Shown here in pieces: positions 5,782-34,633 of a stretch of 47,540 nt of DNA. The stretch spans positions 1-47,540 of the IMG/VR virus record IMGVR_UViG_3300031857_014260. One strand, given 5' to 3'. Positions within the stretch are counted from its first letter, which is position 1. Each line of letters starts with the position of its first letter. Under the pieces are notes generated by a model. The model did no database searches and was not told where the DNA came from. It worked only from the letters and a program-made list of their open reading frames with translations. A program made the translations under genes and the position numbers. Source of the DNA: a virus.

Positions 5782-5805
5782 TAAAACAGGGTCCGAAGAC
5801 CCTGT
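5782..5805 (-). terminator. Rho-independent terminator of the tmRNA gene
   Basis: A perfect 8-bp stem with a TTCG tetraloop (5798-5805 with 5786-5793 on the minus strand) is followed by TTTTAC. It lies immediately after the coding piece of the permuted tmRNA and would end that transcript. Confidence 0.85.
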
Positions 5806-5844
5806 AACTATTTTTGGTAATAAGGCATAGCTGCCCCAGCATGG

Positions 5845-5880
5845 CTATCAAGCAGCCATTGCGTAGTAACTGTCGTTTGC
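5845..5880 (-). other. tmRNA tag reading frame (ANDSYYAMAA)
   Basis: The resume codon GCA at 5880 begins ten codons, ANDSYYAMAA, ended by tandem stops TGA TAG. With the tRNA-borne Ala the tag would be AANDSYYAMAA. It is close to the gammaproteobacterial AANDENYALAA but ends AMAA rather than ALAA. It should mark proteins from stalled ribosomes for ClpXP or ClpAP; the Leu-to-Met change is next to the C-terminal residues that ClpX reads. Confidence 0.9.
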
Positions 5881-5912
5881 AGTTATAGTTTTGCTTCTTT
5901 TACGGAGATCGC

Positions 5913-6062
5913 CTACCGTGTAGATCCTTTGAATACTTGCTCGTCAATCGATACTATTTCCGGCCCATCAATAAGATTCTCTTTGAACTCTTCCAACCAT
6001 TCGTTAAATAACGAATAGTTCCACAAGTTTAAGGGAGGTATATAATTATCCCATTGATCCAT
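5913..6062 (-). CDS. Candidate small ORF overlapping the tmRNA intervening segment and coding piece
   Basis: A 49-codon ORF starts at ATG 6062, 12 bases past the CCA end of the acceptor piece. It crosses the whole intervening segment and ends inside the coding piece upstream of the tag. It reads MDQWDNYIPPLNLWNYSL and onward: acidic, with three Trp and a normal protein-like composition. The upstream AAAAAGA is a poor Shine-Dalgarno. An ORF this long can arise by chance at this GC content, so its status is open. If translated, ribosomes would compete with tmRNA processing. Confidence 0.35.
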   Translation of the reverse strand: MDQWDNYIPPLNLWNYSLFNEWLEEFKENLIDGPEIVSIDEQVFKGSTR

Positions 6063-6171
6063 AAAAATCTTTTTGGTGGACCGGCCGGGTACCGCCCCCG
6101 GGTCTTGTCCAATCTTTCTTCTTAGGCGTTGTACTACAATATCTTCCTACCTTTAGAATAACCTAAAGATA

Positions 6172-6285
6172 TTATTTCTTGCGAGATATCCGGATATTTT
6201 TATTGTACAAATATGTAGTGAAACAAATGCTTAAAATCACACTAACTATTAATACTACTATCCAGATTATTAATGACTTGATCAT
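6172..6285 (-). CDS. Tiny single-pass membrane protein
   Basis: The 37-codon ORF begins MIKSLIIWIVVLIVSVIL, one long hydrophobic segment, followed by a short basic tail (NKNIRISRKK), predicting N-out/C-in topology. It directly precedes the tmRNA acceptor piece and follows another tiny membrane protein with only a few bases between them (stop 6288, start 6285). The function is unknown. A holin-like, toxin-like or accessory membrane role is possible but unsupported. Confidence 0.6.
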   Translation of the reverse strand: MIKSLIIWIVVLIVSVILSICFTTYLYNKNIRISRKK

Positions 6286-6287
6286 AA

Positions 6288-6398
6288 TTACCACAACTCG
6301 CAGTTTTTTATTTTTTCGTCGTCTAATGTTTTATCTCGTGAAAGATATAATACCCCAAACACTAGCCAAAATAGTAAAAATAAAATATAACCGGTCAT
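6288..6398 (-). CDS. Tiny single-pass membrane protein
   Basis: The 36-codon ORF begins MTGYILFLLFWLVFGVLYLS, a hydrophobic helix, then an acidic and basic tail ending KNCELW. A good Shine-Dalgarno (AAGGAAG) lies 6 bases before the ATG. It is paired with the next tiny membrane gene at 6172-6285 and lies between the basic peptides and the tmRNA, apparently in one transcript. No family is recognised. Confidence 0.65.
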   Translation of the reverse strand: MTGYILFLLFWLVFGVLYLSRDKTLDDEKIKNCELW

Positions 6399-6431: not shown

Positions 6432-6512
6432 TTATCTCCGTTTCGCTTTGCGTAGAACTCTACGTGCAGTAGCTTTAATACTGCGAGGATGATGTGCTCT
6501 AAACTTAGCCAT
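6432..6512 (-). CDS. Tiny highly basic peptide B
   Basis: The 26-residue product begins MAKFRAHHPRSIKATARRVL and ends RKAKRR. It overlaps the previous ORF by TAATG (stop and start share bases), implying translational coupling. It resembles that peptide (xFRAxxPxxxKAxARRxLRK pattern), so the two look like a duplicated pair. The charge suggests binding to RNA, DNA or the ribosome. No known family is recognised. Confidence 0.65.
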   Translation of the reverse strand: MAKFRAHHPRSIKATARRVLRKAKRR

Positions 6513-6580
6513 TATTTTTGCCTTTTACGTAGTGCTCGACGTGCTGCTGCTTTAACTGGTGATTTTGCTCTATAACCCAT
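6512..6580 (-). CDS. Tiny highly basic peptide A
   Basis: The 22-residue product starts MGYRAKSPVKAAARRALRKR. A strong Shine-Dalgarno (AGGAGACC) precedes the ATG, and an AATAAATAAT late-promoter-like motif lies about 33 bases upstream. It is first in a small operon of basic peptides, membrane mini-proteins and the tmRNA. It is likely a nucleic-acid-binding mini-protein; the family is unknown. Confidence 0.65.
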   Translation of the reverse strand: MGYRAKSPVKAAARRALRKRQK

Positions 6581-6612
6581 TTTGGTCTCCTAAGTAATTA
6601 AAACATGTATAT

Positions 6613-15140: not shown

Positions 15141-15821
15141 TTAGCGTATTTCAGGGAACAGACAATCCTGTATAAAAATACGTACATCTTCTTCATTAAG
15201 CCCTAAACTTGCCATTACTTTAGGAGTATGCGGATTCTGTTTTTGATTTTCGCAGTAGTAGTTTTGATTACTAGTAGTATTTTTATGTGTAAAATTAGTT
15301 TCTGCTACGGCACTTAGATAATGTTTAATACTAAGATTAGCAAAATTAAAAATTTGAGCAAGTTCTTGATCGTCCTGGACATTACCTGCTGCAACCATAC
15401 TGCCAGTAAAAATACGTTCAGCCCAGTCGGGTAATTTTCTAGTCTTGTTCCATTGCAGTTTAGCAGCTTCGCTGGCAAACCAATCTATTAAAGGATGCTC
15501 ATGATCTCCTGCTGGGCTAAAGTCATGAAAACAACCAGTAATTTTGTGTTTACCGGCAATCACATCAAACCCATAGATTGGGGCAGGATTATGAAGATGC
15601 GGGAAAATACAACAATGCATCATCCAAAGACCTTTTGTATCTCTAGCATCAACTACATCTATGTGTGCTCTGCGATAACGATCGCTATTCCATACGCGAT
15701 TGACCCAGCCAGGCTGATTAAAACGATCCATACCAGGCTCATGTATTTCTGTTCCTGTTTCATTAAATTTTTCTTCTAATAAATTTTGTATACCTATTAA
15801 TGTATCCCATACATTATTCAT
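15141..15821 (-). CDS. pcyX: Ferredoxin-dependent bilin reductase (PcyX-like)
   Basis: The 226-residue product fits phage bilin reductases in length. HCCIFPHLHNP and IYGFDVIAG place His69 and Asp86 at the positions of PcyA His88 and Asp105, the catalytic pair. ITGCFHDFSP and a C-terminal YYCENQKQNPHTPKVMASLG are family hallmarks. Retention of the His argues for PcyX or PcyA over PebS. PcyX reduces biliverdin to phycoerythrobilin in marine phage metagenomes linked to alphaproteobacteria. It overlaps the heme oxygenase gene that would supply biliverdin by 8 bases. The exact product is inferred. Confidence 0.85.
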   Translation of the reverse strand: MNNVWDTLIGIQNLLEEKFNETGTEIHEPGMDRFNQPGWVNRVWNSDRYRRAHIDVVDARDTKGLWMMHCCIFPHLHNPAPIYGFDVIAGKHKITGCFHDFSPAGDHEHPLIDWFASEAAKLQWNKTRKLPDWAERIFTGSMVAAGNVQDDQELAQIFNFANLSIKHYLSAVAETNFTHKNTTSNQNYYCENQKQNPHTPKVMASLGLNEEDVRIFIQDCLFPEIR

Positions 15822-33013: not shown

Positions 33014-34633
33014 TTAAATATTTTTATAAATTGCTGCAAATGAATAATATAATTCTCCCGAATCATTGTAAGTTAAATTTTTGTACTTGATAATAATAGT
33101 ATCATAACTTGAAGCACCGTCAGTATCAACTAACTGTGCAGAAAAAGTTAAATCCAAATCGCCGCCGGACGCACCTGTAAAATCATAATCATCACTTAAT
33201 ACTAGATTATTACGAGCAGCATCTAGTGCAATCTTAATTGTACCTTTTCTCATTAGTACTGAGTTCGAACTTCTGTAGATATAAGATATTTCGTAACCAG
33301 CTAAGTCATAAGCGGGCAATCTAAATAAATCTGTAAATATCGGTGTTTGTGTTAAGATAACTTTTTGTGTTTGACTAATTTTGTACTCAGAGATACCAGC
33401 AACTTCTGCAATATACGGTTCAGTTGAACCAGAATCAGATAAAATAGTCGACCTGTCAAAAATACAATCATTACTATTATTACCAATAATGTCAAATCTA
33501 ATTTGGTTATAGATAGGAACACTGCTATTACCAAGATCATTACCTACATTATTAAAGAAGCAATGGCTAACAAGATTATTGGTTCCCTTTTGTACTAATA
33601 CACCTTCTTGATATATTCTTTCAAAAAAGCATCTAGAAATAATATTAGATCTAGGTCCGTAAATTTCCCCTGTACTAATACCGTCGGTGTTAGCACCAAA
33701 GGAGACAGCAACTCTGCTGTCAGTGATATTACAGTTTTCAATGATATTGAACCGAATATCGTTGTCTGAATGGATTCCGCAATCTACACCACTGATTGTG
33801 ATATTATTAAATGTATTATTTCTACTGGTAACTAACGCACTTAAGGCATTAAGAGATATACCTCTTGATATTGCTGTTTCATCTTGTACTGTAGGAGTCC
33901 AATCTCCTTCAATTTTGATATCTTCAAAATATGATTCTTTGGCAGCATCTAAAATAATACCGCTAGTAGATGCATCGTTTAATTTAATACTAAACCCTTT
34001 AAGAGTAATTCTTTTAGGCTGTGTTCCCAGTGTTGCACTAGCAATAGGTGCAGGATCTCCTTGATCACTATTATCGTTTACACATCTAAATGCAGCGTCG
34101 TATCCTTCACCTACAAAGTTAAAAATAACTTTATCAGTACCAGCACCTACTAGATTGCAATAACTTGGAATATAAATTGTTCTATCGATGTCGTATGTAC
34201 CTGGCCCAACTTCTAAAATGTATCTATTGGTAGTAGTATCTCTTGTAGAAATATTTAAGAAAAGTTGATCAATGGCTCTTTGCAGATTATCTCCACAGAC
34301 AGTACCATTAATAACTGCAAAACTAGCTACTGTAATGTGTTGATCTAATCTACTTTGTAAAGTAGTTTGAATCGGATAGTTGATGTCGTCACTAGTTTGT
34401 ATAGTGCTATCCATTTTTCTGTATTCATATTGATCAGACAGATCAAGTATATTATCGTGTTCGGTCAATATTTTAGTGTTCCCCACATACGGAGACCCTT
34501 CTGCAACTGAGCCGTTACCGATAAACAACTCTTGGGTATCTATCGCCCATGCAATTTCACCACCCGAAAGTTGGGGTAGATCTTCTCTTATACCTCTACG
34601 ATTTTGTATTTTGCTAATTTGAACAACGGCCAT
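33014..34633 (-). CDS. Tail fibre/spike protein with right-handed beta-helix
   Basis: The 539-residue protein begins VVQISKIQNRRGIREDLPQLSGGEIAWAID, an N-terminal virion-attachment-type segment common in phage tail proteins. A pectate-lyase-like beta-helix follows from about residue 140: DRTIYIPSYCNLVGAGT, ITLKGFSIKL, NNTFNNITISGVDCGI and NIIENCNITDSRVAV show the repeated coils. The last 130 residues form a separate domain. It may bind or cut host surface polysaccharide. GATAAATACT lies 22 bases upstream. Confidence 0.85.
   Translation of the reverse strand: MAVVQISKIQNRRGIREDLPQLSGGEIAWAIDTQELFIGNGSVAEGSPYVGNTKILTEHDNILDLSDQYEYRKMDSTIQTSDDINYPIQTTLQSRLDQHITVASFAVINGTVCGDNLQRAIDQLFLNISTRDTTTNRYILEVGPGTYDIDRTIYIPSYCNLVGAGTDKVIFNFVGEGYDAAFRCVNDNSDQGDPAPIASATLGTQPKRITLKGFSIKLNDASTSGIILDAAKESYFEDIKIEGDWTPTVQDETAISRGISLNALSALVTSRNNTFNNITISGVDCGIHSDNDIRFNIIENCNITDSRVAVSFGANTDGISTGEIYGPRSNIISRCFFERIYQEGVLVQKGTNNLVSHCFFNNVGNDLGNSSVPIYNQIRFDIIGNNSNDCIFDRSTILSDSGSTEPYIAEVAGISEYKISQTQKVILTQTPIFTDLFRLPAYDLAGYEISYIYRSSNSVLMRKGTIKIALDAARNNLVLSDDYDFTGASGGDLDLTFSAQLVDTDGASSYDTIIIKYKNLTYNDSGELYYSFAAIYKNI

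Follow-up and report, generated by a model that had tools for sequence, protein, structure and literature searches.

A permuted tmRNA gene of recombinant halves in a freshwater virus of bacteria, with a spacer that probably serves as a slot for small protein genes

Permuted tmRNA genes are known from aquatic phages, among them Melnitz and the Pelagibacter phage Mosig, whose tmRNAs are linked to a glutamine riboswitch; the paper describing them counts 53 two-piece tmRNAs in phage records, of which 50 are aquatic (PMC9004378). Genes within the removed part of a tmRNA gene are also on record: a curated permuted tmRNA set of 11,946 sequences reports a tRNA-Ala inside the intervening sequence of one permuted tmRNA and, in other tmRNA genes, group I introns that carry homing endonuclease genes (PMC11915505). 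Like these cases, the phage spacers described here place a gene where maturation of the tmRNA removes sequence. Unlike the group I intron cases they are spacers of permuted genes and encode many unrelated small proteins, without endonuclease or intron. In the accessible part of the curated set we found no permuted spacer described as containing a protein gene, and the accessible text of the Melnitz and Mosig paper held no mention of a spacer ORF. Some early tmRNA papers aside (Sharkady and Williams 2004; Mao et al. 2009), we found no report of a spacer protein gene in the literature.

The locus analysed here is read from the minus strand of an IMG/VR record of 47.5 kb (47,540 nucleotides, hereafter the window), which comes from a freshwater bacterial virus. 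Among the proteins encoded in the window are DnaK, both subunits of ribonucleotide reductase, porin-like and PstS-like proteins, an endolysin, head proteins and a bilin reductase. The last is a ferredoxin-dependent bilin reductase (PF05996, E 3e-14; 15141-15821, minus strand), a phage pigment-synthesis gene. Two similar, very basic tiny ORFs stand in tandem at 6439-6600 on the minus strand (MGYRAKSPVKAAARRALRKRQK, MAKFRAHHPRSIKATARRVLRKAKRR). The protein encoded at 33014-34633 (minus strand) combines a major tropism determinant N-terminal domain, scoring below the curated cut-off, with a beta-helix and is a possible receptor-binding protein. A permuted tmRNA was present in 26 of the 50 viral contigs (up to 400 kb) that encode a related DnaK.

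A sequence-only reading of the window had described a two-piece tmRNA of permuted order, carried by the phage and bearing a phage-specific tag, and the Rfam searches bore this out. The permuted model (tmRNA_permuted, RF04321) matched over its full span at 5848-6138 (122.7 bits against a cut-off of 47, E 1e-23), with the acceptor/T-arm piece upstream of the tag-coding piece. The beta_tmRNA model (RF01850) was also matched full-length, at 5782-6181 (99.8 bits against a family cut-off of 84; 89.8 bits for the trimmed match), and the alpha model (RF01849) scored lower, at 88.5 bits. Of the tmRNA programs proposed in that reading as a check, the Rfam models thus recognised the gene and ARAGORN did not detect it. 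The cyanobacterial tmRNA model had no match in the gene, and no Rfam match to the glutamine riboswitch was found in the window. The acceptor end, T arm, D-loop-like motif, tag with tandem stops and terminator that had been picked out in that reading are all present on the minus strand (Table 1), as is the 7-bp acceptor stem formed with GGGCCGG, which has the G-U at pair 3 for alanine and an encoded CCA. The whole precursor folded better than shuffled sequences (z -3.4).

Table 1. Features of the permuted tmRNA gene and adjacent small ORFs, in window coordinates
Feature	Position	Strand	Evidence
Permuted two-piece tmRNA gene (precursor; approximate ends)	5782..6141	-	RF04321 and RF01850 matches
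P2 strand TGTAG, acceptor piece; partner CTACA at 5923-5919	6134..6138	-	Pairing across 68 relatives
T arm CCGGG-GGCGGTA-CCCGG	6085..6101	-	Same 17 nt in several alphaproteobacterial hosts
3' acceptor strand CCGGTCC (6084-6078), discriminator A and encoded CCA (ACCA 6077-6074)	6074..6084	-	
107-nt spacer, predicted to be removed in maturation	5967..6073	-	
5' acceptor strand GGGCCGG, with the predicted RNase P cut ahead of 5966	5960..5966	-	Stem conservation
D-loop analogue AGTATCGATTG	about 5945..5955	-	
Short hairpin/PK1 region, beta-type as in most relatives	5902..5919	-	
Tag frame ANDSYYAMAA (5880-5851) and tandem stops TGA TAG (5850-5845)	5845..5880	-	
Beta-type 3' region GGGGCAGCTATGCCTTATTACC	5808..5840	-	RF01850 alignment; comparison with hosts and phages
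Intrinsic terminator hairpin ACAGGGTCTTCGGACCCTGT and T run	5786..5805	-	
Spacer ORF, 49 aa, MDQWDNYIPPLNLWNYSLFNEWLEEFKENLIDGPEIVSIDEQVFKGSTR (begins MDQWDNYIPPLNLWNYS)	5913..6062	-	Homologs in spacers and outside tmRNAs; codon-position pattern
Free-standing 36-aa membrane-type ORF MTGYILFLLFWLVFGVLYLSRDKTLDDEKIKNCELW, upstream of the tmRNA	6288..6398	-	Homolog inside the L135/L368 spacer
37-aa membrane-type ORF MIKSLIIWIVVLIVSVILSICFTTYLYNKNIRISRKK, directly upstream of the tmRNA	6172..6285	-	Sequence reading

Stronger evidence came from comparison with relatives, in a MAFFT alignment of 68 distinct phage genes with slid pairings as controls. The acceptor stem was paired in 99.6% (74 double-sided changes) and the T stem in 100%, percentages that lean upwards because the gene-finding script itself required both pairings. 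P2, whose pairing played no part in locating the genes, was paired in 87% with 46 double-sided changes; the slid controls reached 21-71%. The G-U at acceptor pair 3 was found in 67 of the 68. In blastn comparisons of the window tmRNA with phage records, matches were limited to 35-42 nt of the T arm. An exact 25-nt tmRNA pattern gave zero matches in viral contigs, and a degenerate pattern did give matches.

The permuted order had been taken to suggest capture from, or adaptation to, an alphaproteobacterial host, and the T loop GGCGGTA had been called atypical. The latter does not hold: the Rfam alpha model has GGCgGUA as its consensus, the proposed comparison with alphaproteobacterial ssrA found GGCRGTA in Pelagibacter, Sphingopyxis, Sneathiella and Fokinia genes, and of the 29 distinct bacterial genes used for comparison 23 have GGCRGTA/G. 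Assembly error was ruled out as the source of this loop, since relatives L148/L360 and L357, from other samples, share it. The window gene is like RF01849 in its GGCRGUA T loop, its AUCGA D loop and a T arm of which all 17 nt are identical in several alphaproteobacterial hosts, and unlike it in its lower score and in a 3' region without GGCAACAGAA. With the betaproteobacterial two-piece tmRNA (RF01850) it shares the pseudoknot, tag and 3' region; it differs in having the alpha kind of T and D loops (GGCGGTA and AGTATCGATTG rather than TTCGAYT and GGTTTCGAC) and a tRNA-like half common to phages with other mRNA-like halves. The 3' motif is of the beta type and not that of an alpha-type mRNA-like domain and 3' end, and grouping of the mRNA-like half with alphaproteobacteria, a test chosen post hoc, was rejected (AU p 0.005). 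The alphaproteobacterial affinity is thus half right: on the T and D loop characters it would apply to the tRNA-like half, and it fails for the pseudoknot, tag and 3' half.

Most phage relatives carry a tmRNA that is beta-type from end to end, and in several phages the T and D loops shift jointly to the alpha form. The tRNA-like half of the window gene is 97-98% identical to that of L148/L360 and 94-97% identical to that of L357. The mRNA-like half of L148 matches L135/L368 (PK1 92%, tag 98%), and that of L357 matches L350 in PK1 (100%) and L123 in the tag (100%); all of these partners have beta-type tRNA-like halves. In trees tested for groupings that were chosen post hoc, with the data already seen, the tRNA-like half united the window gene, L148 and L357 (support 100/99) and rejected L148 with L135 (p 6.6e-5), and the mRNA-like half united L148, L135 and L147 (100/99) and rejected the first trio (p 0.001). 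Immediately upstream of the swapped half, L148 retains GAATTGTTGTATGAAGGG, a strand of beta-like kind that we read as an insertion scar. Since a near-identical tRNA-like half sits on other mRNA-like halves in two relatives, the window gene is, by these sequence comparisons, a recombinant: its tRNA-like half, whose T arm is alphaproteobacterial in type, is joined to a pseudoknot, tag and 3' half of betaproteobacterial type. The permuted order makes the T arm, acceptor, spacer, acceptor and D arm contiguous, so that one exchange could move the tRNA-like half together with the spacer. The first pseudoknot region likewise has two forms, one short and one long (L137, L139, L140, L141, L144 and L145 as against other relatives), apparently a further mosaic module swapped among otherwise similar genes.

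The origin of the tRNA-like half has a rival account, in which that half is a divergent beta-type sequence that reached GGCGGTA by convergence and is no alphaproteobacterial piece. The trio is weakly placed in the tRNA-like tree, where its grouping with the beta-like set was not rejected (p 0.48), as this account would allow. Identity of the 17-nt T arm with several alphaproteobacterial hosts and the joint change of T and D loops in several phages argue against it, and we regard convergence as a real but rather unlikely possibility. Half-swapping among phages stands on the sequence comparisons whether or not convergence occurred.

The spacer of the window gene contains an ORF, a protein gene of which the earlier reading made no mention. 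Its ATG lies 11 nt past the CCA, and the frame crosses the 5' acceptor and the D loop and ends at TAG 5915-5913. By itself the window ORF is weakly supported (single-sequence null p 0.115; weak Shine-Dalgarno AAAAAGAT), and the case is carried by the family to which it belongs, named here PPLNLWNY after a shared motif. We scored a spacer as filled when an ATG or GTG frame began within 30 nt of the CCA, a criterion set after the first examples had been seen; TTG starts were dropped from the scan as they gave many trivial matches. Among spacers of at least 85 nt, 19 of 23 distinct phage spacers were filled against 2.5 expected from shuffles, with some mutual relatives scored separately in this count. 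Spacers of 60-84 nt behaved like shuffled sequence (10 of 25 filled, 9.0 expected), and the few bacterial spacers of testable length had no filling ORF. A Shine-Dalgarno-like triplet lay within the first 14 nt past the CCA in 24 of 29 long spacers versus 5 of 32 shorter ones. The spacer ORFs typically begin about 10 nt past the encoded CCA and end at or beyond the 5' acceptor, often at the TGA within a conserved TGAT that precedes it, and their proteins fall into a dozen or so unrelated families of 22-101 aa.

Differences within spacer families were concentrated at third codon positions. Counts at positions 1, 2 and 3 were 21/12/44 for a 24-aa membrane peptide family, 36/36/108 for a 64-aa family and 75/41/149 for the PPLNLWNY family, the last taken only from the part before the tmRNA 5' piece. 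The final 17 codons of the window ORF overlap conserved RNA structure, and part of the similarity there is therefore not protein constraint. The PPLNLWNY pair L378/L388 differed at 0, 0 and 8 sites. dN was well below dS in families for which dS could be estimated; most PPLNLWNY pairs were saturated in dS and gave no ratio. With the Melnitz-type family described below, these alignments show codon-level purifying selection in all four families tested.

Three spacer families also have homologs as ordinary genes outside tmRNA. Members of the 64-aa family lie in the spacers of L394-L398, whose tmRNAs have T loops of four kinds, and the family recurs at 52% identity as an ordinary gene in L399-L403. 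PPLNLWNY proteins occupy at least six distinct spacers (window, L145, L350, L376, L378, L388) and occur outside tmRNAs at seven loci (L374, L379, L381, L383, L386, L392, L393); in L392 the gene immediately precedes a tmRNA whose spacer is 27 nt long. Matches to the pattern PPLNFWNY in L372, L380, L382, L384 and L387 were discarded as one unrelated sequence, and that in L389 was taken as chance. In L386 and L375 the PPLNLWNY motif is N-terminal in a longer protein bearing a GGDHYKNKAIQPWDYI motif, which we take to resemble DUF3310. In the window itself, the free-standing 36-aa ORF upstream of the tmRNA is 54.5% identical over 33 aa (E 7e-9) to the 35-aa spacer protein of L135/L368. Upstream of the tmRNA in L132 lies a sequence that matches the 24-aa peptide weakly (E 0.008). 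No significant homologs of the window, 84-aa, 64-aa or 36-aa proteins were found in isolated phages.

A cultured phage provides a parallel case. Melnitz (L406, MZ577097.1; host OM43 strain H5P1) is like the window in having a permuted ssrA with an alpha-type T loop and a spacer ORF in an aquatic phage; the mRNA-like half of the window gene, unlike that of Melnitz, is beta-type. A 54-aa ORF with the Shine-Dalgarno sequence TTGGAGA lies at 752-916 on the plus strand, inside the annotated SsrA spacer, and the record has no CDS annotated over it. Relatives of this ORF were present in 18 marine-type contigs (L407-L424), and three more matches covered the tmRNA part alone. Codon-position differences in the family were 324/298/660, with dN below dS in most informative pairs and an in-frame 24-nt insertion in one group; the last third differs in the most divergent members (L420-L424). 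Among other isolates, the Xanthomonas phage XacN1 (L405, AP018399.1), a jumbo phage of a gammaproteobacterium, carries an unannotated permuted beta-type tmRNA at 860-1279 on the plus strand (123.2 bits permuted model, 107.8 beta; tag ANANTFDYALAA), in whose spacer no filling ORF was seen by eye.

We consider it probable, at roughly 0.78, that the phage permuted tmRNA is a gene of recombinant halves whose spacer serves as a slot in which small cargo genes share the transcription of the tmRNA. A putative upstream promoter would yield a single precursor ending at the terminator. Host enzymes would cut it 5' of G5966 and 3' of the CCA, and the resulting pieces would pair via the acceptor and P2 helices, be charged with alanine by the host alanyl-tRNA synthetase and bind host SmpB. 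Translation of the spacer protein could take place on the precursor or on the spacer once it is excised, and the phage would thereby obtain two products per short transcription unit. Genome packing would account for this most economically: the spacer tolerates insertions, so that a small gene placed there shares the tmRNA transcript.

A closer coupling of cargo and tmRNA can also be imagined. In the window, in L145, L350, L376 and L388, and in most of the Melnitz group, the spacer ORF stays open up to the predicted RNase P cut, so that the spacer would become a nonstop message once excised. It might then act as a built-in substrate of the tmRNA, or as a ribosome sensor controlling maturation. 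Melnitz-type members vary in having a stop before the predicted site, and forms with such a stop would be uncoupled. We hold processing-coupled cargo to be improbable.

An alternative that we judge very unlikely is that the tmRNA is decaying, or inhibits host trans-translation in the manner of the DS6A RNA, which has only a tRNA-like domain, and does not rescue ribosomes. There is precedent for a phage tmRNA that lacks a tag and inhibits tmRNA (PMC11915505, PMC4131195). SmpB was found in none of 31 phage records by a search that was positive in 10 of 14 control genomes; host SmpB would therefore have to serve, and the RNA could titrate it. Against decay or inhibition, nearly all members of a set of 75 distinct phage genes have an open tag frame with a hydrophobic-Ala-Ala or similar ending, the alanine-identity G-U pair was retained in 74 of the 75, and the stems covary. 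The match to a permuted model and the conservation of stem and tag in relatives, on which the sequence-only reading had staked its proposal, were thus both found, and the window gene is most likely a functional permuted two-piece phage tmRNA. The AMAA ending, from which a different turnover of tagged proteins had been proposed, occurred in 3 of the 75 phage tags; host tags with AIAA, AVAA, RFAA and FAAA endings exist. Tags of 23-32 aa, against the usual 10, were seen in L124, L131, L134-L136, L138, L147, L148, L351-L353 and L359, some with an internal tag-like start such as ANVSTFKFWQSPVSVAANDEAFALAA.

Also very unlikely is an ordinary phage-captured permuted tmRNA whose spacer ORFs are chance frames in AT-rich sequence with no coding role, as the 60-84-nt spacers, the few bacterial spacers and the window ORF taken alone would permit, but the excess of filled long spacers, the third-position excess in four families and the homologs outside tmRNA genes speak against it.

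A recombinant gene with a cargo slot would have consequences for how phage tmRNAs are read. A protein gene nested in the discarded part of a structured RNA gene is apparently unreported, and the dozen or so spacer families are easily overlooked by annotation, as the unannotated Melnitz example illustrates. Host history was inferred from tmRNA phylogeny for Melnitz; because tmRNA halves recombine in phages, tmRNA phylogeny alone is a poor guide to phage host history. The cultured pair of Melnitz and OM43 H5P1 makes the spacer-gene idea testable.
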